Below are positions 12,448 to 23,817 of a stretch of DNA of 23,817 bases, in pieces. The first letter of the stretch is position 1, and each line of letters opens with the position of its first letter. This stretch comes from an uncultured Cellvibrio sp. (GTDB lineage Bacteria > Pseudomonadota > Gammaproteobacteria > Pseudomonadales > Cellvibrionaceae): the NCBI GenBank assembly GCA_946481735.1, contig CAMLOU010000064.1:1-23817 (forward strand), written 5' to 3'. The notes under the pieces are model-generated. The model worked only from the letters and a program-made list of their open reading frames with translations. It did no database searches and was not told the origin of the DNA. The translations under genes and the position numbers were made by a program.

Positions 12448-14172
12448 TTAATAAAGTTGCCAGAGCTGATTGCCGCCGCCGAAGTAATCCCACTGCTGGA
12501 TATTGGCGCCGTCGGCCGTGGAGTTGCCAGCCACGTCCAGCGACTTGCCGCTCAACACCGACAGGATGCGATACACATCGCCCACCGGCTCAATGCGCCA
12601 GCGCTGGTTGGCACCGCCACCATAAGTCCACAGGTGGATATTCGCCCCGTTGGCGGTGGAGACATTGGCTACATCCAGGGCGCGTCCGCTGTGCACAGCC
12701 TCTATGCGATATTCGTTGTTACCCAGTGCCGTTACCTGCCAGCGCTGGTTGTCGGCGCCGGTGCGGGCCCAGAGTTGCACATTGGCGCCGTTGCTGGTGG
12801 AGACGTCCTGCACATCCAGGCTCTTACCGCTGCCCACATTGATGATCTCGTAAATCCCGTTGGTAATGGCGCCATCGCCAGGGCCGCCGGGGTTGGTGGT
12901 GCCGTTATGTTTTACCGCGTCGTAAAACCCCTGGTGCCACTGGAGGCCAGCACTGCCGTTGGCGATGTTGTTGCGCGCAAAATCCAGCATGCCCTGATAG
13001 GCGCCGGCTGGTGGCGTACCGCCGTTGTTGATGAAGTTCTTGACCTGGTTGTAGAGGTTATTGGGCTGAATGGTCCACAGGGTGCGGTCGTGGGACATCT
13101 TCTTAAACGACCAGGGGAAATGCCCGGCGATATTGTTGATTGACCAGTCGGTCGCGGTGCGAATGATCTCGTTGGTGTCCTCGCCGTACTCGCCGAGGAT
13201 CAGCGGAATATTCAAGCGGTTGGTGATGTCATCCCGCGTGTACATATCTGCCAGGGCGCCGGCATTGCCAAACACATAATGGTGGGTTTCATAGACGAGG
13301 TTGTTGTCCCAGCGCGTCGTCACGCCAGTGGCCGCCTGGGTCGCAGGATCAGTCCAGTCGAGTACCTGCAATTGCGACGCCCACCAGCCGCCTTCCGCCA
13401 CGATGATGTGGTTGTTATCTACCTCGCGAATCGCATTGCGCAGTTGGATCAATGACGGCAGCAATTCATATTCGCGGCCCGGCGGCAGTACCGGTTCATT
13501 GATCAGGTCGTAACCCCAGATCATGGGTTCGTTCTTGTAACGGTTGGCGATGTGACGCCATACCTGACGGGCGATCTGGATGTTGTTGCCGTCCCAGAAC
13601 TTCACGGAATCCCGCGGTTGGCTGGCATTGGAATTCAGATTGTCGCTATGATCGCCGGGGTTTTGATAACCGGGCGCGGCGTGCATATCCAGCAGGATAT
13701 ACACACCGTGGGTGCGGCAATATTCAATCAGACGGTCGAAATACTGGAAACCGTGATCGCTGAGCTGGCCGTTTTGCCAGAACATATTGTAGTGGAAGGG
13801 CACGCGCACCGAGTTAAAACCCAGCCCGGCCAGCTCGGCGATGGCCCGTTCATTCACATAATGTAAGCGCCACTGGTGTTCAAATTCCCGCGCATTATCC
13901 ATGCCGCCCAAGGCGGTGCCGAGGCTGTTGAGGAACTGGGTATGGGTTCGGTAATTGAAGTCGCCCATCATCAGATAGCCTTCCCACAGCAACCAGTTGC
14001 CGAGGTTCATGCCGGTGAAATAGATTTCGTTGCCATTGCCGTCCAGGATGCGCGTGCCCTGGGTATGCACAAATTGGCTGTGGGCGCTGCTGGCAAGCAG
14101 CATCAGCGTTAACAGGATGGCGCCGTAAAGACGGCGGTGCAAAGTGAAAAGAAGAGGGTGTAATCGAGACAT
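12448..14172 (-). CDS. Secreted GH5 glycoside hydrolase with C-terminal ricin-type (CBM13-like) domain
   Basis: A 574-residue exported enzyme. The signal peptide ends near AHS|QF (residue 32). The GH5 barrel spans about residues 35-385, with VRVPFHYN, acid/base Glu in LINEP (E226), THHYVF and nucleophile Glu in LILGEYG (E328). A Gly/Pro/Asn-rich linker (about 422-437) leads to a ricin B-type trefoil (438-574) with three repeats marked by SGKSLDV, SGRALDV and SGKSLDV, each followed by a Q-x-W. It likely cleaves a plant or microbial beta-glucan; GH5 also holds mannanases and exo-1,3-glucanases, and NLGNWLLWEGY does not let me choose. The ATG at 14172 has GGAG 11 bases upstream. No enzyme partners adjoin it; the ~325-base spacer before it is full of repeats. 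Confidence 0.93.
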   Translation of the reverse strand: MSRLHPLLFTLHRRLYGAILLTLMLLASSAHSQFVHTQGTRILDGNGNEIYFTGMNLGNWLLWEGYLMMGDFNYRTHTQFLNSLGTALGGMDNAREFEHQWRLHYVNERAIAELAGLGFNSVRVPFHYNMFWQNGQLSDHGFQYFDRLIEYCRTHGVYILLDMHAAPGYQNPGDHSDNLNSNASQPRDSVKFWDGNNIQIARQVWRHIANRYKNEPMIWGYDLINEPVLPPGREYELLPSLIQLRNAIREVDNNHIIVAEGGWWASQLQVLDWTDPATQAATGVTTRWDNNLVYETHHYVFGNAGALADMYTRDDITNRLNIPLILGEYGEDTNEIIRTATDWSINNIAGHFPWSFKKMSHDRTLWTIQPNNLYNQVKNFINNGGTPPAGAYQGMLDFARNNIANGSAGLQWHQGFYDAVKHNGTTNPGGPGDGAITNGIYEIINVGSGKSLDVQDVSTSNGANVQLWARTGADNQRWQVTALGNNEYRIEAVHSGRALDVANVSTANGANIHLWTYGGGANQRWRIEPVGDVYRILSVLSGKSLDVAGNSTADGANIQQWDYFGGGNQLWQLY

Positions 14173-16933: not shown

Positions 16934-18133
16934 TCAATACCAAAACGACCAATACAATCGGATGACATCTGCATCGAAGTTATACAACGGTTCCTGGCCG
17001 AATAATACGCCTTCTTCGCGCGGTACAACTCGACGGAAATCTTCGTAATCAAACTGGATGCGATCCCAGTACAAATTCACGGTGCTCTTATCAAACCAGG
17101 GAACAAATCCTGCGGGTAATTGGTAGGTAACGCCCAATCCAAAGGTGGTGGTGGTGAGAGGACTTAATTCCTTGTCGCGGCCCATAAAGTTTTGATAGTT
17201 GGCATAGGGAAAAAGGTCGCTGTAGAAGTCGGCTTCGGTTTGTTCGTAGGCGCGGTATTTTAATTCGAAGAGCCACTCCTTGTAGGGATGGGTGTAACGC
17301 ACTTCATAGTTGCTGGCTTCGATACCCCAGCTGTCGGAGAATTCGCGGTAATCGGCACGGATAGCGGCGCGGTAGGGCAGATAATAAATGGCACGCACAC
17401 CGACTGCATCGCTGTTGTGGGTGTTGGGGTATTTCTCTTCTGCTTCAGTACGCGAATTGCATACTGGATTTATACCGTCACCGTCGTTGCAAAAGCGCAT
17501 AACGCGATAAGGATTTTGCAGATAACCCTCATCCACCGCACTTTCCACGCTCAGAGCGGCAATCAAATTCTTCGTCAGGATTTGTGAAATATTAATGCTA
17601 TAGCGACGACGCTCTGCATCGCGTTCGCCGAACTCCGGCCGATCATTACGGCTGATAATGTCATCACCAAAACTGGTGTTGAGGCTGACGGTGGTCAGAT
17701 CGCCAAAGAATGTCTGGCTGACGCTGAAACTGTAGGTGGTGGAGTCGAAATCATTTTCTTTGCTGGTTGAGTAGCCCAGGTTAAACGTCGTGCGATCGTG
17801 CAGGTAAACCAGACCTAAATCTTTTTGTTTACGCTCTTCGGCATAGGGGCTCGCGCCGGATTCCACGTCTGCACCGCGCGCGGCGACCACATCAATGGAA
17901 GCGCCGCTGATGCTGTCTACATAATATTGGCCGGAAATTGACACCGAATTGCCGAGATTTTTGCGCACCAGAATGGCAGGGCCATCGATCTGGGTGCCGC
18001 CGCCTTCGTAGCTGTGGTACATGATGTCGATGCGTTCATCAGGCAACACCTCCGCCTGCGCGTGCGCGAAAAAAAACAGCAGGGCAAGGCTTAATAACGC
18101 CAGACCAATACGCAGGGGATTAGTTACAACCAC
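16934..18133 (-). CDS. DUF3570-type outer-membrane beta-barrel protein
   Basis: A 399-residue exported protein taken from the GTG at 18133, which has GGGAGG 5 bases upstream and yields a compact signal peptide (NPLRIGLALLSLALLFFFAHAQA|EV). An ATG at 18154 is the main alternative. It is made almost wholly of alternating amphipathic strands with aromatic girdles (MYHSYEGGGTQIDGPAILV, LVYLHDRTTFNLGYSTSKEN, YSINISQIL, EWLFELKYRAYEQ) and ends YWSFWY, a barrel-assembly signal. The family is DUF3570, function unknown, which I recall as a regular neighbour of DUF4266 genes. It overlaps the end of the DUF4266 gene by 14 bases. It is the last gene of the six-gene operon. Confidence 0.88.
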   Translation of the reverse strand: MVVTNPLRIGLALLSLALLFFFAHAQAEVLPDERIDIMYHSYEGGGTQIDGPAILVRKNLGNSVSISGQYYVDSISGASIDVVAARGADVESGASPYAEERKQKDLGLVYLHDRTTFNLGYSTSKENDFDSTTYSFSVSQTFFGDLTTVSLNTSFGDDIISRNDRPEFGERDAERRRYSINISQILTKNLIAALSVESAVDEGYLQNPYRVMRFCNDGDGINPVCNSRTEAEEKYPNTHNSDAVGVRAIYYLPYRAAIRADYREFSDSWGIEASNYEVRYTHPYKEWLFELKYRAYEQTEADFYSDLFPYANYQNFMGRDKELSPLTTTTFGLGVTYQLPAGFVPWFDKSTVNLYWDRIQFDYEDFRRVVPREEGVLFGQEPLYNFDADVIRLYWSFWY

Positions 18134-18359
18134 AGCCGCCTCCCGCACCGCCATCGCCACCCCGTGCCGCTTCGCGCGCATCGTACACGTGATGCAAGTA
18201 GCCACTGGAAATCGGATCGCGATCAAAACTCATCAGCGGATCAGCAATGTTTTGCCGCTCATAAGGTTTGACCCAGGGTTCAATGCGCCCGCAGGCGCAC
18301 AGGCTGAACACACCGATCAACAGCAGCGCGCGAAGGGCTTTAGGTGCTGAGGGAATCAT
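18120..18359 (-). CDS. DUF4266-type small lipoprotein with GGGCGCN tail
   Basis: A 79-residue predicted lipoprotein. The signal sequence (residues 1-22) ends in LCAC, giving lipid Cys23. A conserved-looking PWVKPYER (about 28-35) and a middle segment ADPLMSFDRDPISSGYLHHVYDAREAA follow. The last 13 residues are GGDGGAGGGCGCN, a glycine run with two cysteines separated by one residue. This matches DUF4266, of unknown function. Its ATG overlaps the tlpA-like stop as ATGA, so its output is coupled to that thioredoxin. A C-x-C pair at an exposed, flexible C-terminus, next to a periplasmic thioredoxin, suggests a metal-binding or redox tail. The family is firm in my view; the role is inference. Confidence 0.88.
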   Translation of the reverse strand: MIPSAPKALRALLLIGVFSLCACGRIEPWVKPYERQNIADPLMSFDRDPISSGYLHHVYDAREAARGGDGGAGGGCGCN

Positions 18360-18838
18360 TCGCGGATCAGCTCCCGAATCTGGTCGCGGTATTTGTTTTC
18401 ATCGCCGGCTTTGTAACCGCGATTCACAAAACGCACTTCGCCTTTTTTATCGATCACCACGGTGGTGGGCATAGCATCCACTTTGTAGAGCTTGCTCACT
18501 TTGCTGTCAGGATCGTAAAGCACCGGCAGGGACACACCCAAATCTTCAATTAATTTTTTGGCGGCAGCGGTGTCCTGCTCAACGTTCACACCATAGAGTT
18601 CAAAACCGGCTTTGTTGTAACGTTTGTACATGTCATCCAGCAAGGGCATTTCGGTGCGGCAGGGGCCACACCAGGAGGCCCAGAAATTCAGCATCACCAC
18701 CTTGCCGCGCTGTTCGGCCAGGCGCACGTTCTCGCCGCTTTCACTTTTTAAGGTGAAGTCCGGGGCGGGGGCGGCGTGGGTGAACGCGGCAAATGCCAGC
18801 AGAAAAACAACACTTAAACCGGGCAGAGATAATTTCAT
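18356..18838 (-). CDS. TlpA-type periplasmic thioredoxin
   Basis: A 160-residue exported thiol-disulfide oxidoreductase. The signal peptide ends around FAAFTHA|APAP (residue 22). The thioredoxin fold carries FWASWCGPCRTEMP (active-site Cys57 and Cys60) and the cis-proline segment AMPTTVVID (P124). Relatives reduce specific periplasmic disulfides or copper-site cysteines, fed from DsbD/CcdA. The ATG at 18838 has AGGAG 7 bases upstream. The gene is 18 bp after a barrel gene and overlaps the DUF4266 gene by 4 bases. Its likely targets are its neighbours with cysteines: the C-x-C tail protein and the two-CxxC lipoprotein. Confidence 0.94.
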   Translation of the reverse strand: MKLSLPGLSVVFLLAFAAFTHAAPAPDFTLKSESGENVRLAEQRGKVVMLNFWASWCGPCRTEMPLLDDMYKRYNKAGFELYGVNVEQDTAAAKKLIEDLGVSLPVLYDPDSKVSKLYKVDAMPTTVVIDKKGEVRFVNRGYKAGDENKYRDQIRELIRE

Positions 18839-18856
18839 AAAACAACTCCTGCGAAT

Positions 18857-19531
18857 TTAGAAAAAGAGTGACAGGCCGATGCGGCCTTCGAGGTTGTGGG
18901 TTTCTTTGCTCTCGCCGAACAACTCGTGGGTAAACACATGATCGCGCATGCTCAAATCGAACGATACCCAATCAGTGGCGAAGAACCGCAGCCCGGCACC
19001 AAAGTTATAGGTGAAATAATCCTTGGAGGCGAACTGCGTGTTGCCGGCGCCGGCGATTAAATAAATGCGCGTATTGAACGCCCATTTATCGCTGATCTGG
19101 ATCTGGCCGGGAAACAGGTTATAGCCCAGCGACAGGTTGTAATAGGTCAGGTCCCGCTCTTCGTCGGTGAGCAGTTGTACCCCACCGCTGAGCAATTCGT
19201 AGCTGGTTTCTTGTAGCCGGCTCATGCCGTAAGTCGCTTCGGCAAAAAAATCTTCGGTGATGTGGTAAGCCATGGTGACCCCGACCACATCATTGGTGCC
19301 GAAGTCTTCGATGCCCAGCAAACCGTAGAACGCGCCGAACTCAAAGTTCTCGCTGTCGATCATCTCTTCCTTGATGGTGCGGCGTTCGATATCCGGCGAG
19401 ATGATCTGACCCAGCTCATCCTCGTCGTCTGCGTCCTGCGCCAGGCTCAGCGGTGCGCCGGCCCACAGGAGGCATCCCACACAGAGTGCTGCTGTGCGCA
19501 TCAGAAAAAGATGTTGAAACCGACTTTCCAT
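18857..19531 (-). CDS. Small outer-membrane beta-barrel protein
   Basis: A 224-residue exported barrel. The ATG at 19531 has AGAGG 7 bases upstream but overlaps the preceding gene by 31 bases. An ATG at 19501 forms a TGATG overlap with the preceding stop and gives a shorter signal peptide (MRTAALCVGCLLWAGAPLSLA). The acidic start of the mature protein (DADDEDELGQIISPDIERRTI) precedes strands such as FEFGAFYGLLGI, TMAYHITEDFFAEATYGMS and NLSLGYNLFP, and it ends GRIGLSLFF, a barrel-assembly signal. It resembles the outer-membrane barrel family found in myxobacteria and some other proteobacteria. Its partner in the operon has the same fold behind an SH3 domain. Function unknown. Confidence 0.87.
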   Translation of the reverse strand: MESRFQHLFLMRTAALCVGCLLWAGAPLSLAQDADDEDELGQIISPDIERRTIKEEMIDSENFEFGAFYGLLGIEDFGTNDVVGVTMAYHITEDFFAEATYGMSRLQETSYELLSGGVQLLTDEERDLTYYNLSLGYNLFPGQIQISDKWAFNTRIYLIAGAGNTQFASKDYFTYNFGAGLRFFATDWVSFDLSMRDHVFTHELFGESKETHNLEGRIGLSLFF

Positions 19532-20301
19532 TCATTGACCTCTTCATTGTCGTTGCGGCTGGTCAGGATCATGTGGTTGGTGTATTCAACGCGCATGAAA
19601 AAGCGGCCGGTCAAGTGGATATAACTGCCGAGGCTGGCCTGGATCAGCGTGTCGTTGCGATCCTCCGGCTCCACCAGAGTGGCGCTGGGCAAGGTTTTGA
19701 TCTCGCCGGTGCCGAGGCTGAAAAACGGTGAAATTCGCCATTCGGGAAACGGTTGGTGCAAGAGCGCGACGGCGAGGATCTGGCTATCCGAAAACTGGCC
19801 GGTGTTTTGTGCAACCCGCAGTTCGGCGGTGAGGTTTTCGGTAAAGCGGTAACCCAGGGTGCCGGTCAGTGAGTCGGCGCCGTTGAAATCACCGAGGGCC
19901 ACGCCCAGTTCAAACCGGTCGGTGAGGTAATCTTCCTGCTTGGGATCATCCAGTTCCGGTGGCTGGCCATCGGGGCCGAGGGTGAACTGGAGATCGCGAC
20001 GGCGCACCCAGCCGGTCTTGCCGCGATAGGTTTTGATCTTGATCCAATCGGTGCGGCTTTTCAGCAGCGTAATGACCTCGCCGCGCTCCACCACATGGAA
20101 AATCGGATAGCCGCGGCCGGGCCCATTGTGGACATTGATGTAGGCATCGTTGACCGTCACTTGCGGATCATCATCGGCCCAGGCGCCGGGGCTGAGCCAT
20201 AACGCGGCGCACAGAAACAACAAACCGCCGATGCCCTGAAGGCAGCGGCGGTGCAGTACAAAGCAGACATCCCCAAGGGGTAGCGATACAGCGTTTATCA
20301 T
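19501..20301 (-). CDS. SH3-domain plus outer-membrane beta-barrel protein
   Basis: A 266-residue exported protein from the ATG at 20301, 4 bp after the preceding stop; the frame extends to a TTG at 20334 inside that gene but this is unlikely. No clear ribosome-binding site is visible, so coupling to upstream translation is likely. After a long signal sequence (cleavage near PGAWA|DDD) comes a bacterial SH3 domain (about residues 48-106: VNDAYINVHNGPGRGYPIF, WIKIKTYRGKTGWVRRRDL), usually a peptidoglycan binder. A beta-barrel then starts FELGVALGDF, with GTLGYRFTENLTAELRVA, and ends WKVGFNIFF. The design suggests a barrel anchored to the wall. Function unknown. Confidence 0.88.
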   Translation of the reverse strand: MINAVSLPLGDVCFVLHRRCLQGIGGLLFLCAALWLSPGAWADDDPQVTVNDAYINVHNGPGRGYPIFHVVERGEVITLLKSRTDWIKIKTYRGKTGWVRRRDLQFTLGPDGQPPELDDPKQEDYLTDRFELGVALGDFNGADSLTGTLGYRFTENLTAELRVAQNTGQFSDSQILAVALLHQPFPEWRISPFFSLGTGEIKTLPSATLVEPEDRNDTLIQASLGSYIHLTGRFFMRVEYTNHMILTSRNDNEEVNEWKVGFNIFF

Positions 20302-20305
20302 CGTT

Positions 20306-23068
20306 TTATTCTTGAATTGGGTCTGCCGAGTCAAAGGGGTTTTGGTAATAGCGGGCGCCGAGGTCGATCCACTCCCGTAGCAGTTTTAACTCACTATTGT
20401 TTAAAAAGCCAGAATGGCTGCCATTCTCTCTGAAACGACTGAAGAAACGCTCGCTGCCGAGAGCGTTGCCGCGCGCGATGCTGGGCGGCGTTTCATCGTA
20501 TTCCGGGTTGGGGACGGGGTTACCTTCTTCGTCCAGTACTGGCAGACCTTCGGCATCCAGCAAAAACTCCGGCACAGTGACCACATTGCCGGCTTCATCC
20601 ACTTCCCGTTCGGCGCGCGCGTTGAGTAGCTCAAAATACGAGGTCATCTCGGTATTCTGGCGCGGCGTGCGGGTCAGGTTAAGCTGGATGGCGCCGGTCA
20701 AATTGGGATTGGTGACATCGGCGATGGTGGTGCTGCCCGCGTGGCAGCCGATGCAATTGAAAGGGCGGAGTTCACCGAGCTCATCCACCACATTCGCAGA
20801 GGTTCTTTCTATTTCCCACAAATACTGGATGTGGTTTTCGTAGTTGATCACGATGCGGCAAGTGCTGTTCCAGTCGTCCATACAGCCTTTGTTTTTGAGT
20901 GGCGCTTTGAGGGTGGATTGCTCTGAAGCGCCGGGAACCAGGTCCAGGTAACGATAAGCAAATGCCTCGTCGCGCGGGCGGCCGGGTGCCAGGGCGGGAT
21001 CGGTCCATTCGTCGATAAAGATCAGGTCTACGGTCGGTTCGCGTAAGCCGGCATTCAGGTAGATATCGGGATCACCCGGTTGAGCGCCGGGCGCGGCGAA
21101 GTAAGTGCGCGCTGCAAATTCGGCCATGGTTTCACCCGCTTGCGGTAGCTCAGGGGTACCAAATTGATCAAACCGCTGCGTGCCCGGAAATGCTACACCA
21201 GAGGCGCCAGGGTTGATGGAGTCCGGCACGATATCGGCGCGACTCACCGGTTGGGTGGGGCTGGTGTTGAGGCAGCCATTGCATTCGAGCCTTTCTCCCG
21301 GACGGACCTGCATCCAGTAAGTGGCGTTGTTGCTGATACGGCGGCCTTCCCCATCCAGGACTTCAACCGTAAAGGCGATATCGGCGGGTATCTGGACCAA
21401 TACCGAGCCGTCCGGCTCCACCGGTGTATAGCCGATGATTTCGCGCAGGCCGGTATTCTGGTTAAAACGGTTGCCATACACCGTGTCTTCCTGCTCATCG
21501 AGCACATCGTTGTCCGCAATGGACACGGCCTTGACAATGCGCAGGAAGCGCGCGGGCCGGTCATCGGCCGAGGTCTGTGCAGGGTTGGCCAGGACACTGA
21601 GGTTCAGGTTGTCGGCATCAACGTCGGCGAGATTGCCGTCGTAAACGCTGCGAATATGCAAGGTACCGAGGTCGGCATTGGTGGTCGTCGGGGCGATATA
21701 ACTGGGCGGCGCTTGCGGCTCCAGGATCACCGCTTCAGTAAACATGCGCCCTTCTTTGCCGAGCACAACGGGTTGCTGGGTGTCGTCGGTCATGTTGTAA
21801 ATCCAGATCCCGAACAGCGGCGGTGCGATCTCCGCTGCGTCGTTTTCCCACCACTCGCCGGTGCAAGGTACCAGGCGACCGGTGTCGATCACCCGCATCC
21901 GGCATTGGCTCCAGCTGACCAGCAGGCGGTTGGTGCCGTCGAACAGCGGATGGAGCGAACTGAATACCCCATTACGTGAACGCTCGTCATCGGTGACGAT
22001 ATCGAGGTGATAGATGCGCTCCTGCGCCTCGCCACCGCCGCCGTTGATGGGTACATCGTTCTCCACAAAATTTTCCGTGTCGATCACCAACATATCGCCC
22101 CCCAGGAATTCGCTGCGGCGTTTGAAGATCGCCGCTATGCGCCGGTCGGACAGTGACTGCGGGCGGAACAAGGTCAAGGATTCATCGCGCGGGGTGGTGT
22201 TGAGGCTGTTGAAACCATAGTGGTATTGCAGGTCGGTACCGTCGGGATTCACGGTATACAAACTCAGGTTGTTGCGCCCATTGGCCTGGTCCCAGCGAAG
22301 AAACAGCACACGTCCGTTACCCAGCACCGTGGGTTGCAGGTCGTGGCTCTGGTTGTAGGTGATCTGCTGGATGTTGGTGCCGTCGTTATCCATCACATGC
22401 AGGACAAAGGCGGGCCCATCGTTACCCTCTTCCTGGGCGGTGTACTGGGGTTTGTTGTCATCCAGCAACATCCCGCGGCTGCGGGTCTGGCGGGTGGAGC
22501 TGAAGATGATGCGGTCGTCCGGCAGATAGCGCGGGCTGACATCGTGACCGGCTTCGGCAACGATGTTGGACGTGATGACGCGCCGCAGGACTTTATCGAT
22601 CAGGTGGTATTCCCAGATATCCCACTTGGGTTGTTCGTCATCATCGGCATTGGGGATTTCCGGCGCGCGCATGGCAAACAACAGGCGGTCGCCATCGGGA
22701 TGGATGCTCAGGTCTTTAACATCGTAATTGGGGGCTTCCGGGTCGAAATTATCATCGGCAATAAATGCATCCTGGGTAATGTTCTCCGCCGCTGCCAATG
22801 CTGTGGCCCGGGGTTTCACATAAATAGCGGCACCGGGATTAAACGCCGCCGGGTCAAGGATATCCAGGGGCAAAAGGGTTTCCGGATCGTCTTCATCTGT
22901 TGGCAAGGGGCGGTCAATAAACGCCACCGGTAAATCCACCGTTACCGGGTCCGGACTTTGGCCACCGCCTTCGCTGCCGCCACCTCCACCACCGCAGGCG
23001 GTAACCAACAAACAGCCAAGCCACAGGGGCAGGCTGCGCACGAGTGATGAACGGACGTGGTGGATCAT
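20306..23068 (-). CDS. Large HzsA-related lipoprotein (PD40-like repeats, C-terminal CxxCH)
   Basis: A 920-residue predicted lipoprotein from the ATG at 23068 (AGGG 9 bases upstream; the frame extends to a TTG). The signal sequence ends LLVTAC (lipid Cys25), followed by a GGGGGG run. A TolB/PD40-like propeller region covers about residues 80-480 (VSPRYLPDDRIIFSSTRQ near 175, LYTVNPDGTDLQ near 270). A middle domain (about 490-620) resembles that of the hydrazine-synthase-alpha family. There, CNGCL (596-600) sits where relatives carry a CxxCH heme site, but the His is Leu. An intact CIGCH (772-776) follows, preceded by a Cys pair (CMDDWNSTC). One c-type heme is therefore likely. This is the family called HzsA-related, and it is not a hydrazine synthase. 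It is the first gene of the six-gene operon. Confidence 0.85.
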   Translation of the reverse strand: MIHHVRSSLVRSLPLWLGCLLVTACGGGGGGSEGGGQSPDPVTVDLPVAFIDRPLPTDEDDPETLLPLDILDPAAFNPGAAIYVKPRATALAAAENITQDAFIADDNFDPEAPNYDVKDLSIHPDGDRLLFAMRAPEIPNADDDEQPKWDIWEYHLIDKVLRRVITSNIVAEAGHDVSPRYLPDDRIIFSSTRQTRSRGMLLDDNKPQYTAQEEGNDGPAFVLHVMDNDGTNIQQITYNQSHDLQPTVLGNGRVLFLRWDQANGRNNLSLYTVNPDGTDLQYHYGFNSLNTTPRDESLTLFRPQSLSDRRIAAIFKRRSEFLGGDMLVIDTENFVENDVPINGGGGEAQERIYHLDIVTDDERSRNGVFSSLHPLFDGTNRLLVSWSQCRMRVIDTGRLVPCTGEWWENDAAEIAPPLFGIWIYNMTDDTQQPVVLGKEGRMFTEAVILEPQAPPSYIAPTTTNADLGTLHIRSVYDGNLADVDADNLNLSVLANPAQTSADDRPARFLRIVKAVSIADNDVLDEQEDTVYGNRFNQNTGLREIIGYTPVEPDGSVLVQIPADIAFTVEVLDGEGRRISNNATYWMQVRPGERLECNGCLNTSPTQPVSRADIVPDSINPGASGVAFPGTQRFDQFGTPELPQAGETMAEFAARTYFAAPGAQPGDPDIYLNAGLREPTVDLIFIDEWTDPALAPGRPRDEAFAYRYLDLVPGASEQSTLKAPLKNKGCMDDWNSTCRIVINYENHIQYLWEIERTSANVVDELGELRPFNCIGCHAGSTTIADVTNPNLTGAIQLNLTRTPRQNTEMTSYFELLNARAEREVDEAGNVVTVPEFLLDAEGLPVLDEEGNPVPNPEYDETPPSIARGNALGSERFFSRFRENGSHSGFLNNSELKLLREWIDLGARYYQNPFDSADPIQE

Positions 23069-23512
23069 GGCGTTTTGCCCTGCACAAGAAAACGGGTTGG
23101 GATGATAGCTCAATCATGGCAGTCAATTGCCGCGAGTCGTTATTGCCGGCCGATATCCGGTGGGCGCTGGCGCCTGAATGGGATGCCGCCGCGCGGGAAC
23201 CACATTCTCAGGGAAGGCCTGACGCCAATCTCTCGATCTGGTCACGCTTTCTTGCCCATCGGCAAATCCTTTCGCGCCAACTGTTGAAAACAACTGGCTT
23301 CTAAAAATAGCTGAATTCTATGCATCTGGCTGTTTCATCGCTGGTCGGGCTGGGTCGGGAGTGGCGCGTTTTAACGAATCTGTGATGAGGTCCACAATGT
23401 GGATGCAAGCGAGCCGCAGGTTTATACCGTTCGGCGACATATAATCAGTGGCGAACAATTAGCCTGCTAGACTGATTTTTCAGTCGAGGCAGAACAAAAA
23501 TCTGGAGCAGCC
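23069..23512. promoter_or_regulatory. Divergent control region of the HzsA-related operon and the right-edge gene
   Basis: These ~444 bases hold no convincing gene; overlapping short + strand frames at 23044-23304 lack ribosome-binding sites and protein-like composition. On the + strand, TATAAT at 23440-23445 is a perfect -10 for the right-edge gene, 68 bases before its start, but the -35 is poor, suggesting an activator. I see no clear - strand promoter for the six-gene operon. Confidence 0.55.
23470..23485 (+). other. Short perfect stem-loop in the 5' leader of the right-edge gene
   Basis: GACTGATTTTTCAGTC: a 6-bp perfect stem with a TTTT loop, about 25 bases after the TATAAT and 19 bases before the ribosome-binding site GGAG. 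It may be an operator dyad or an RNA leader hairpin. Confidence 0.5.
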
Positions 23513-23817
23513 GTGACCACACAAGCCTTTATATCCCCCGGCAGATCAGCCGGGTGGCGTCCTACTGTGCATCGCCGAATGGTGTCCGGTGCGCTATTGC
23601 TGGTTTCCCTGTTTGCGTCCATCGCCATGGCCGGCTTCCGGGAGCAGGCATTGCAAATTCATAACCGTGTGGCGGGTGTGCCGCCATCGGAAGCGGTGCT
23701 TCTGCAGATGGCCTCGCTGATTGAGGGCGGTAATGTGGCGGGTGCCGTGGAAGTGGCGATGGATAACGAAGCCTTCTACAGCGTCACCCTCAAGAATATG
23801 GCCACGCCCTGGACCAA
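23513..23817 (+). CDS. Exported protein of unknown family (5' part)
   Basis: The first 101 residues of a gene that runs off the right edge. The start is a GTG at 23513 with GGAG 5 bases upstream; an internal ATG (residue 23, MVSGALLLV) is the alternative. A signal peptide (about residues 1-40, ending SIAMA|GF) is followed by REQALQIHNRVAGVPPSEAV and an Ala/Glu-rich helical segment. IHNRVAGVPPS faintly recalls the start of planctomycete-type heme-associated DUF domains, but I do not recognise the family. The gene is divergent from the HzsA-related operon across a shared control region. Since the next operon also encodes only exported proteins, it is a candidate member of the same system. Codon use looks like that of its neighbours. 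Confidence 0.8.
   Translation, partial: MTTQAFISPGRSAGWRPTVHRRMVSGALLLVSLFASIAMAGFREQALQIHNRVAGVPPSEAVLLQMASLIEGGNVAGAVEVAMDNEAFYSVTLKNMATPWT

Follow-up and report, generated by a model that had tools for sequence, protein, structure and literature searches.

The window analyzed here is a stretch of 23,817 nt (positions 1 to 23,817 of contig CAMLOU010000064.1, assembly GCA_946481735.1) from an uncultured Cellvibrio sp., and our subject is a six-gene cluster at its right-hand end together with the genes that accompany the relatives of this cluster in other genomes. The six open reading frames (ORFs) encode exported proteins and lie tightly packed on the minus strand, and a seventh gene, UP, diverges from them on the plus strand and is cut by the window end. 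In gene order, starting from the HzsA-like gene, the junctions are a gap of 4, an overlap of 31, a gap of 18, an overlap of 4 and an overlap of 14 nt, counted from starts at ATG 23068, ATG 20301, ATG 19531, ATG 18838, ATG 18359 and GTG 18133; the HzsA-like start gives 920 aa, as in P0001, and that of the SH3-barrel protein 266 aa, as in P0121. A sequence-only reading of the window had described the same six packed genes, and every one of its junctions was reproduced exactly. The features are as follows, with protein identities taken from Pfam and NCBIfam profile scans.

20306..23068, minus strand: HzsA-like lipoprotein, 920 aa, with an ACG lipobox, PD40 propeller, HZS_alpha middle domain and C-terminal CIGCH (PF18582, 3.2e-14, plus PD40)
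21269..21283, minus strand: first heme motif position of the HzsA-like protein, CNGCL, His lost (from the alignment; C596/C599 of P0001 invariant)
20741..20755, minus strand: second heme motif of the HzsA-like protein, CIGCH (C772/C775/H776 of P0001 invariant in an alignment of 24)
19501..20301, minus strand: protein with an SH3 domain and a C-terminal beta-barrel, 266 aa, candidate GltB-like barrel (SH3_3, 1.7e-11)
18857..19531, minus strand: OMP_myx_plus outer-membrane barrel, 224 aa, candidate GltA-like barrel (TIGR04565, 7e-51, 172 bits against a cut-off of 60)
18356..18838, minus strand: TlpA/ResA-type periplasmic thioredoxin, WCGPC (PF00578, AhpC-TSA, 1.4e-33)
18120..18359, minus strand: DUF4266 lipoprotein with C-terminal CGC(N) (PF14086, 2.5e-22)
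18126..18134, minus strand: CxC motif of the DUF4266 protein (TGT GGT TGT)
16934..18133, minus strand: DUF3570 outer-membrane barrel, predicted double flavinylation substrate (PF12094, 2.3e-40)
17897..17908, minus strand: flavinylation-type motif 1 of the DUF3570 protein, SGAS
17849..17860, minus strand: flavinylation-type motif 2 of the DUF3570 protein, SGAS
23513..23815, plus strand: divergent gene UP, cut by the window end; the piece stops short of the heme motif

The scans bear out the family assignments made earlier from the sequence (HzsA-related, SH3, barrel, TlpA, DUF4266 and DUF3570), and the three barrel-type C-termini then listed, WKVGFNIFF, GRIGLSLFF and YWSFWY, are all present. 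The closest named relatives come from Cellvibrio sp. (P0005) for the HzsA-like protein and Cellvibrio sp. ARAG 10.3 (P0121) for the SH3-barrel protein. Neither ApbE, among the 17 window ORFs scanned, nor DsbD, among the window ORFs scanned, gave a match, and no Agl-Glt core genes were found within the window.

Conservation and proteins of the cluster

What is said here and below on gene content, gene order, linkage and co-occurrence, and on motifs and fold classes, is observation. One genome per species was scanned with the alignment of 24 HzsA-like proteins, giving 73 loci, and profiles of the window proteins were then run on all of their ORFs. The window gene order recurs in these loci, with UP in 72, the SH3-barrel gene in 68, the OMP barrel gene in 67, and the TlpA, DUF4266 and DUF3570 genes in 65 each; the misses are contig ends, except that L047 lacks a TlpA match and L055 a DUF4266 match. 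At positions 1854-7956 of L055, from a Cellvibrio metagenome-assembled genome (MAG), the HzsA-like gene is spread over two ORFs while the TlpA and DUF3570 matches fall on one, which probably reflects frame errors and was left uncorrected. By record titles all 73 loci are gammaproteobacterial, and the hosts include Cellvibrio, Marinimicrobium, Microbulbifer, Gilvimarinus, Simiduia, Teredinibacter and Marinobacter as well as a Woeseiaceae MAG, Chromatiales MAGs and the Olavius algarvensis Gamma 3 symbiont. The gene set is kept well beyond close relatives, from Cellvibrio to the Chromatiales MAGs and the Olavius symbiont, and the divergent exported gene that had been proposed as a partner of the cluster is truly linked to it.

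In relatives, UP encodes an exported cytochrome-like protein of ~420 aa with the motif NNCxGCHxGMDPM; a single CxxCH is present in 71/71 sequences of at least 380 aa, and the matches to PSD2/DUF1585 and PSCyt3/DUF1588 are weak, lying below the Pfam cut-offs. UP is the first gene of a second conserved arm; next come genes for a LamG diheme lipoprotein and for a protein with the alkaline-phosphatase fold, and often that of ApbE, a flavin transferase found in the examined flanks of 36 of the 73 loci and in 20/20 host genomes.

Three of the minus-strand genes carry thiol and flavin signatures. The TlpA protein has WCxxC in 66/66 sources; the window copy is thioredoxin-fold, matches best as AhpC-TSA and weakly as PF13899 (19.9 bits, cut-off 27), and its best NCBIfam model is ResA at 124.5 bits, below the cut-off of 170. 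The DUF4266 protein ends in CGCN in the window and has a C-terminal CxC in 65/66 sources. The window DUF3570 protein has two SGAS motifs of the flavinylation type, and in all 65 readable sequences the position that would be modified holds S or T at the first site and S at the second. A DUF3570 protein of Chlorobium luteolum was shown to be flavinylated by ApbE at two [S/T]GA[S/T] motifs, in a paper that also reports genes for ApbE, DUF3570, DUF4266 and a thioredoxin-like protein clustered together, sometimes along with DsbD, and that describes the role of electron transfer through DUF3570 as uncertain (Méheust et al. 2021, PMC8238504). The claim, made from the sequence alone, that no described system has the composition of the window cluster thus does not hold for its TlpA-DUF4266-DUF3570 part, which matches the ApbE flavinylation clusters of that paper.

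A structure model of the DUF3570 protein (pLDDT, the predicted local distance difference test, 83) has 16 main strands. Foldseek returned 348 matches at E<=0.001, and the 50 listed are outer-membrane barrels with modest TM scores of 0.22-0.44 (by query length). If the N-terminus is taken to be periplasmic and strands are counted from there, the 21-residue loop between strands 3 and 4 is framed by serines 110 and 126; the model is poor at this place, residues 119-126 having pLDDT <50. In the model this flavin-serine loop presumably lies outside the cell, because its side of the barrel carries most of the long loops.

The two small barrels are related to each other. The SH3-barrel protein also matches OMP_myx_plus weakly (27 bits, cut-off 60), its barrel aligns with the OMP barrel in hhalign (96.4 %, E 1.4e-9), and by these profile comparisons the two are paralogs. 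Their genes overlap by exactly 31 nt in 62/68 sources, the OMP start codon sitting inside Glu-Trp-Lys codons close to the end of the SH3-barrel gene. Like the recurring gene order, this constancy speaks for an arrangement that goes beyond chance. In Myxococcus xanthus, GltA and GltB are paralogous outer-membrane barrels that stabilize the tetratricopeptide repeat (TPR) protein GltC (PMC4488436); the SH3-barrel protein is a candidate GltB-like and the OMP barrel a candidate GltA-like protein.

Against the alpha subunit of hydrazine synthase, HzsA (5c2v), the HzsA-like protein gives a match of E 4.3e-12. The middle domain, which in relatives has a heme CxxCH, accounts for it, and there are two additional weak, collinear matches, one in the propeller and one close to the C-terminus. 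HzsA itself has two heme c sites. The earlier description of a CxxCH lipoprotein is correct for one intact motif (CIGCH), but the other reads CNGCL where most relatives have CxxCH. Among HzsA-like sequences of at least 800 aa, 62/67 have two CxxCH motifs and 5/67 one (the window, L019, L023, L027 and L045); the first heme site is the one lost, at three or more places on the tree. Identity as a hydrazine synthase was rejected, since the NCBIfam hydrazine_alpha score is 43.5 bits against a cut-off of 800 and the 5c2v match is mainly to the middle domain. Two side observations concern this family: in L085 (3545-7039, minus strand) a very long PVDPVD repeat spacer separates the propeller from the heme part, and in plasmid records NZ_AP025307.1 and NZ_OY725748.1 an HzsA-type propeller stretch occurs in proteins annotated as SUMF1/EgtB/PvdO family nonheme iron enzymes.

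Elsewhere in the window, the 10 other ORFs scanned match unrelated families. A glycoside hydrolase family 5 (GH5) cellulase with ricin-type lectin repeats (12448-14172, minus strand) fits a polysaccharide-degrading Cellvibrio-like host.

The Agl-Glt-like core operon in related genomes

An Agl-Glt core complex (aglRQS, gltCDEG) with one extra gene has been described in Gammaproteobacteria, with Marinobacter, Teredinibacter turnerae and Saccharophagus named as carriers (Luciano et al. 2011, PMC3169522); the available text of that paper and of PMC3858216 gives it no known function in these non-gliding bacteria. An operon of similar composition stands near relatives of the window cluster. In Microbulbifer the divergent arm continues via ApbE into genes for P181 (a small exported protein, used here as core marker), TPR proteins, TolQ, two ExbD and a protein whose C-terminal domain is of the AgmX/PglI type, and in Marinobacter the P181/TPR/TolQ/ExbD/ExbD/tail operon stands behind DUF3570. 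The AgmX/PglI tail scores 65.9 bits in L078 (cut-off 40), and its model, NF033768, is above cut-off in 26/26 related genomes, compared with two matches, neither above cut-off, in 14 controls. The core TPR proteins of relatives are of ~650 and ~950 aa, accompanied by a smaller TPR lipoprotein; a GltE match in the operon is weak (29.3 bits, cut-off 225). One TolQ and two ExbD are present in each of L078, L079, L084, L085, L087, L088, L095-L099 and L101.

Co-occurrence of P181 with the HzsA-like gene was counted in two samples, which share at least genome G001. With P181 matches of E<=1e-47, the 293 genomes of the order sample comprise 70 with both, 5 with HzsA only, 3 with P181 only and 215 with neither, so that strong P181 is present in 70/75 HzsA-like carriers and in 3/218 other genomes. 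The corresponding figures for the 321 genomes of the class sample are 45, 4, 5 and 267, three HzsA matches weaker than 1e-15 having been counted both ways. P181 was also found in 20/20 DUF3570-type genomes, with ApbE within 3 kb of it in 16 and within 13 kb in 19.

A compact variant joins the two parts directly. It was read in seven loci: those of the six order-sample genomes that have an HzsA-like gene and no DUF4266 match, and that of G103, in which 9 kb separate P181 from a divergent HzsA-like gene. In all seven the order is P181-TPR-TPR-TolQ-ExbD-ExbD-tail, and the HzsA-like gene comes next, after a spacer of 48-237 nt. Upstream of P181 there are OMP barrel genes in 7/7 loci and an SH3-barrel gene in 6/7; the SH3-barrel/OMP pair is divergent to P181 in five (L084 and L096-L099). 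In L095 the pair and P181 share a strand, and an extra OMP_myx-type gene beside P181 is divergent; L085, which likewise has an extra OMP_myx-type gene beside P181, shows two OMP genes, one of them divergent, and no SH3-barrel gene within the stretch examined. Within 19-19.5 kb the seven loci gave no match to TlpA, DUF4266, DUF3570, ApbE, UP or LamG, and the 535-aa family had no match in the seven genomes. Two CxxCH motifs are nevertheless kept in the HzsA-like proteins of five of the seven and one in the other two. The idea that the HzsA hemes need the flavin relay was accordingly rejected, as these loci keep CxxCH with no relay genes nearby.

Further arrangements of the core were seen. A second TlpA-like gene lies between ApbE and P181 in L025, L029, L036, L040 and L044. 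In L088 (7508-18385, minus strand; genome G057), another variant, a TlpA-like gene separates P181 from the AgmX-tail gene in a core operon, and there is no HzsA-like gene. Second, more distant P181 copies occur in 11/20 genomes (G003, G007, G009-G012, G014-G017 and G019) and suggest a second core operon in many hosts. In L081 (2-16745), from the genome of the Cellvibrio mixtus locus L004, ApbE and a P181/TPR operon lie behind genes that, by their sequence starts, look like type II secretion genes.

A candidate two-part envelope machine

It is very likely, in our view, that the heme/flavin cluster and the core form one functional system. Judged from gene content and linkage, the window cluster probably makes up the outer-membrane and redox half of a gammaproteobacterial envelope machine that has two parts, is ion-driven and resembles Glt. 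The suggestion of an outer-membrane electron-transfer machine in the sequence-only reading stands as far as an exported outer-membrane redox module is concerned; the window would, however, contain only about half of the system. The metal-handling and protein-modification roles also suggested there are neither favored nor disfavored by these data. Part A would comprise the two paralogous barrels, the HzsA-like lipoprotein, TlpA, DUF4266 and the flavinylated 16-strand DUF3570 barrel, facing the cytochrome-like, LamG diheme and alkaline-phosphatase-fold proteins of the divergent arm, which would continue just beyond the window. Part B, which relatives suggest lies elsewhere in the host genome, would comprise the TolQ/ExbD/ExbD motor, which looks related to the gliding motor of Myxococcus, the AgmX/PglI-tail protein, the large TPR proteins and P181, usually with ApbE next to them.

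The following scheme is our inference as to the route and direction of the electrons, the placing of the heme proteins at the surface and the link with the motor. ApbE would attach two flavin mononucleotides (FMN) to DUF3570; TlpA would pass thiol electrons to the CxC of DUF4266 and then to the FMN barrel, which would hand them over the outer membrane to surface heme proteins; and the periplasmic motor with its TPR scaffold would engage the two small barrels and move the surface head or load it. We lean slightly toward the existence of such a thiol-flavin-heme wire. The LamG domain suggests that the substrate is a polymer, and any given substrate is improbable. More tentatively, and with less confidence than in the wire, the gammaproteobacterial Agl-Glt core may in general be an electron-fed surface machine, in which periplasmic ion-driven motion and outer-membrane electron transfer meet in one complex. 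Its constant outer-membrane part would be the GltA/GltB-like barrel pair and the HzsA-like lipoprotein, and TlpA, DUF4266, DUF3570 with two FMN and the cytochrome-like, LamG diheme and phosphatase-fold proteins would form an optional part that usually supplies the thiol-to-flavin-to-heme wire.

Several observations weigh against these proposals. The P181 threshold was chosen after the scores had been seen, and when any match of E<=0.001 is accepted the counts (both, HzsA only, P181 only, neither) become 71, 4, 25 and 193 in the order sample and 45, 4, 26 and 246 in the class sample; all co-occurrence counts also ignore the relatedness of the genomes. G301 has the whole of part A and P181 was not found in it, G344 has HzsA without P181, and strong P181 occurs without an HzsA match in G057, G060 and G119 (order sample) and in G327, G345, G403, G487 and G593 (class sample). 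In G016, ApbE and P181 are on different contigs, and in the Cellvibrio relatives labeled on the tree part B is not adjacent to part A. The strict motif [ST]GA[ST] occurs twice in DUF3570 of only 3/66 sources (window included), once in 30/66 and not at all in 33/66. Finally, the flavin relay is, by the gene content of the compact variant, not essential to the HzsA heme motifs, because that variant keeps them without it.

One alternative is that the window carries the described ApbE/DUF3570/DUF4266/thioredoxin module with cytochromes added, the Agl-Glt-like core being an unrelated neighbor. The window features fit the published flavinylation module (PMC8238504), and such a module does exist on its own, because 40 of the 109 genomes with DUF4266 have no HzsA-like gene. 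That same comparison, however, shows HzsA to be tied more tightly to strong P181 (70 with both; 5 and 3 with one alone) than to DUF4266 (69 with both; 6 and 40 alone), a tie that becomes less tight when weak P181 matches are counted. The compact variant moreover ties HzsA and the barrels to the core with no flavin part, and ApbE stands beside the core and not beside DUF3570 in Cellvibrio mixtus and Simiduia, where P181 and ApbE lie about 165 kb and about 19 kb, respectively, from the HzsA-like gene. We therefore consider the unrelated-neighbor explanation unlikely.

A second alternative denies the thiol-to-flavin wire and makes TlpA a helper of cytochrome c maturation only, reducing CxxCH thiols in the manner of CcmG or ResA. 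It would suit both the best-scoring NCBIfam model, ResA, even though its score is below the cut-off, and a cluster rich in CxxCH proteins. It too seems unlikely to us: the seven compact loci keep CxxCH with no TlpA within 19-19.5 kb (the search covered these stretches), on which ground TlpA was rejected as a necessity for HzsA heme attachment, and the published DUF3570 clusters pair the thioredoxin-like protein with DUF4266 (PMC8238504).

Linkage and co-occurrence might also mean no more than that a few lineages inherited one gene block from a common ancestor. All loci are gammaproteobacterial by their titles, the counts are uncorrected for relatedness, and on a FastTree tree of 74 HzsA-like proteins (67 of the 74 sources, those under 800 aa being left out, plus the seven compact ones) the arrangement labels cluster and the compact loci occupy one side of one branch. 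Several arrangements nevertheless exist (divergent arm, behind DUF3570, unlinked and compact), and they need 7 changes on this tree, the divergent-arm arrangement at least 3, although 13/74 rows with too little flank are unlabeled and the program warns that long branches may be wrongly joined. P181 is also kept with HzsA when the two are apart: of 68 genomes, 46 have them within 30 kb and 22 beyond it, 4 farther off on the same contig and 18 on other contigs, the last number perhaps inflated by fragmented assemblies and only one or two positions having been entered where there are several P181 copies. ApbE, furthermore, is near the core in 19/20 DUF3570-type loci and in 0/7 compact ones. Common descent as the whole explanation is in our judgment quite improbable. 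That the module feeds electrons to lytic polysaccharide monooxygenases is the most improbable of all and was rejected as a general role, for, although the divergent arm has a LamG lectin domain, many named hosts are polysaccharide degraders and AA10 genes are slightly commoner in carriers (14/75 versus 20/218), an AA10 match is absent in 61/75 carriers.

The flavinylation half and the core complex are each already in print; what seems new is the link proposed here, together with barrels and a heme protein for the core. Neither the joining of the two nor such partners for the gammaproteobacterial core, nor an envelope machine that combines a motor with an electron supply of its own, was found in the literature searched, which covered few subscription papers. 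If both do belong to one machine, the Agl-Glt core and DUF3570 electron transfer each give a handle on the other, and the old question of core function becomes testable in culturable hosts, through surface redox activity and core assembly.

Comparison with known systems

The HzsA-like protein resembles HzsA (5c2v) in its HZS_alpha middle domain, with a heme CxxCH there in relatives, and in the weak propeller and C-terminal matches that follow in the same order; it differs in scoring far below the hydrazine_alpha cut-off and, in the window protein, in the loss of the first heme His. With the clusters of Méheust et al. (2021, PMC8238504) the window shares a DUF3570 protein with two motifs and a DUF4266 protein with a CxC tail. 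It also has a thioredoxin-fold protein, of the TlpA/AhpC-TSA type where those clusters have PF13899; there is no DsbD among the scanned window ORFs, and the barrels and the HzsA-like, LamG and cytochrome-like proteins are additions here to what the available text describes.

The divergent arm recalls the "Planctomycete-specific" cytochromes, in which carbohydrate-binding modules, Laminin_G_3 among them, are fused to PSCyt (PMC5615132). The likeness to the PSCyt/PSD gene sets lies in a cytochrome-like protein with a weak PSD2/PSCyt3 match and in the combination of LamG with CxxCH; the difference is that the UP matches are under the Pfam cut-offs and the gene set is another one.

The window pair (266 and 224 aa) and M. 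xanthus GltB and GltA (275 and 256 aa) are alike in being two paralogous barrels, similar in size, with a TPR protein as a further shared element (PMC4488436); the likeness drawn here is a descriptive one. The window pair differs in the SH3 domain on one barrel, and gliding is not indicated here. The available text of PMC3169522 confines gltA and gltB to Myxococcales and Bdellovibrionales and describes the gammaproteobacterial Agl-Glt core without barrel, heme, flavin or thioredoxin partners. The operons found in relatives of the window nevertheless resemble that core, in a likeness of composition, since a single operon there encodes TolQ, two ExbD, TPR proteins and an AgmX/PglI-tail protein and includes at least one extra gene.

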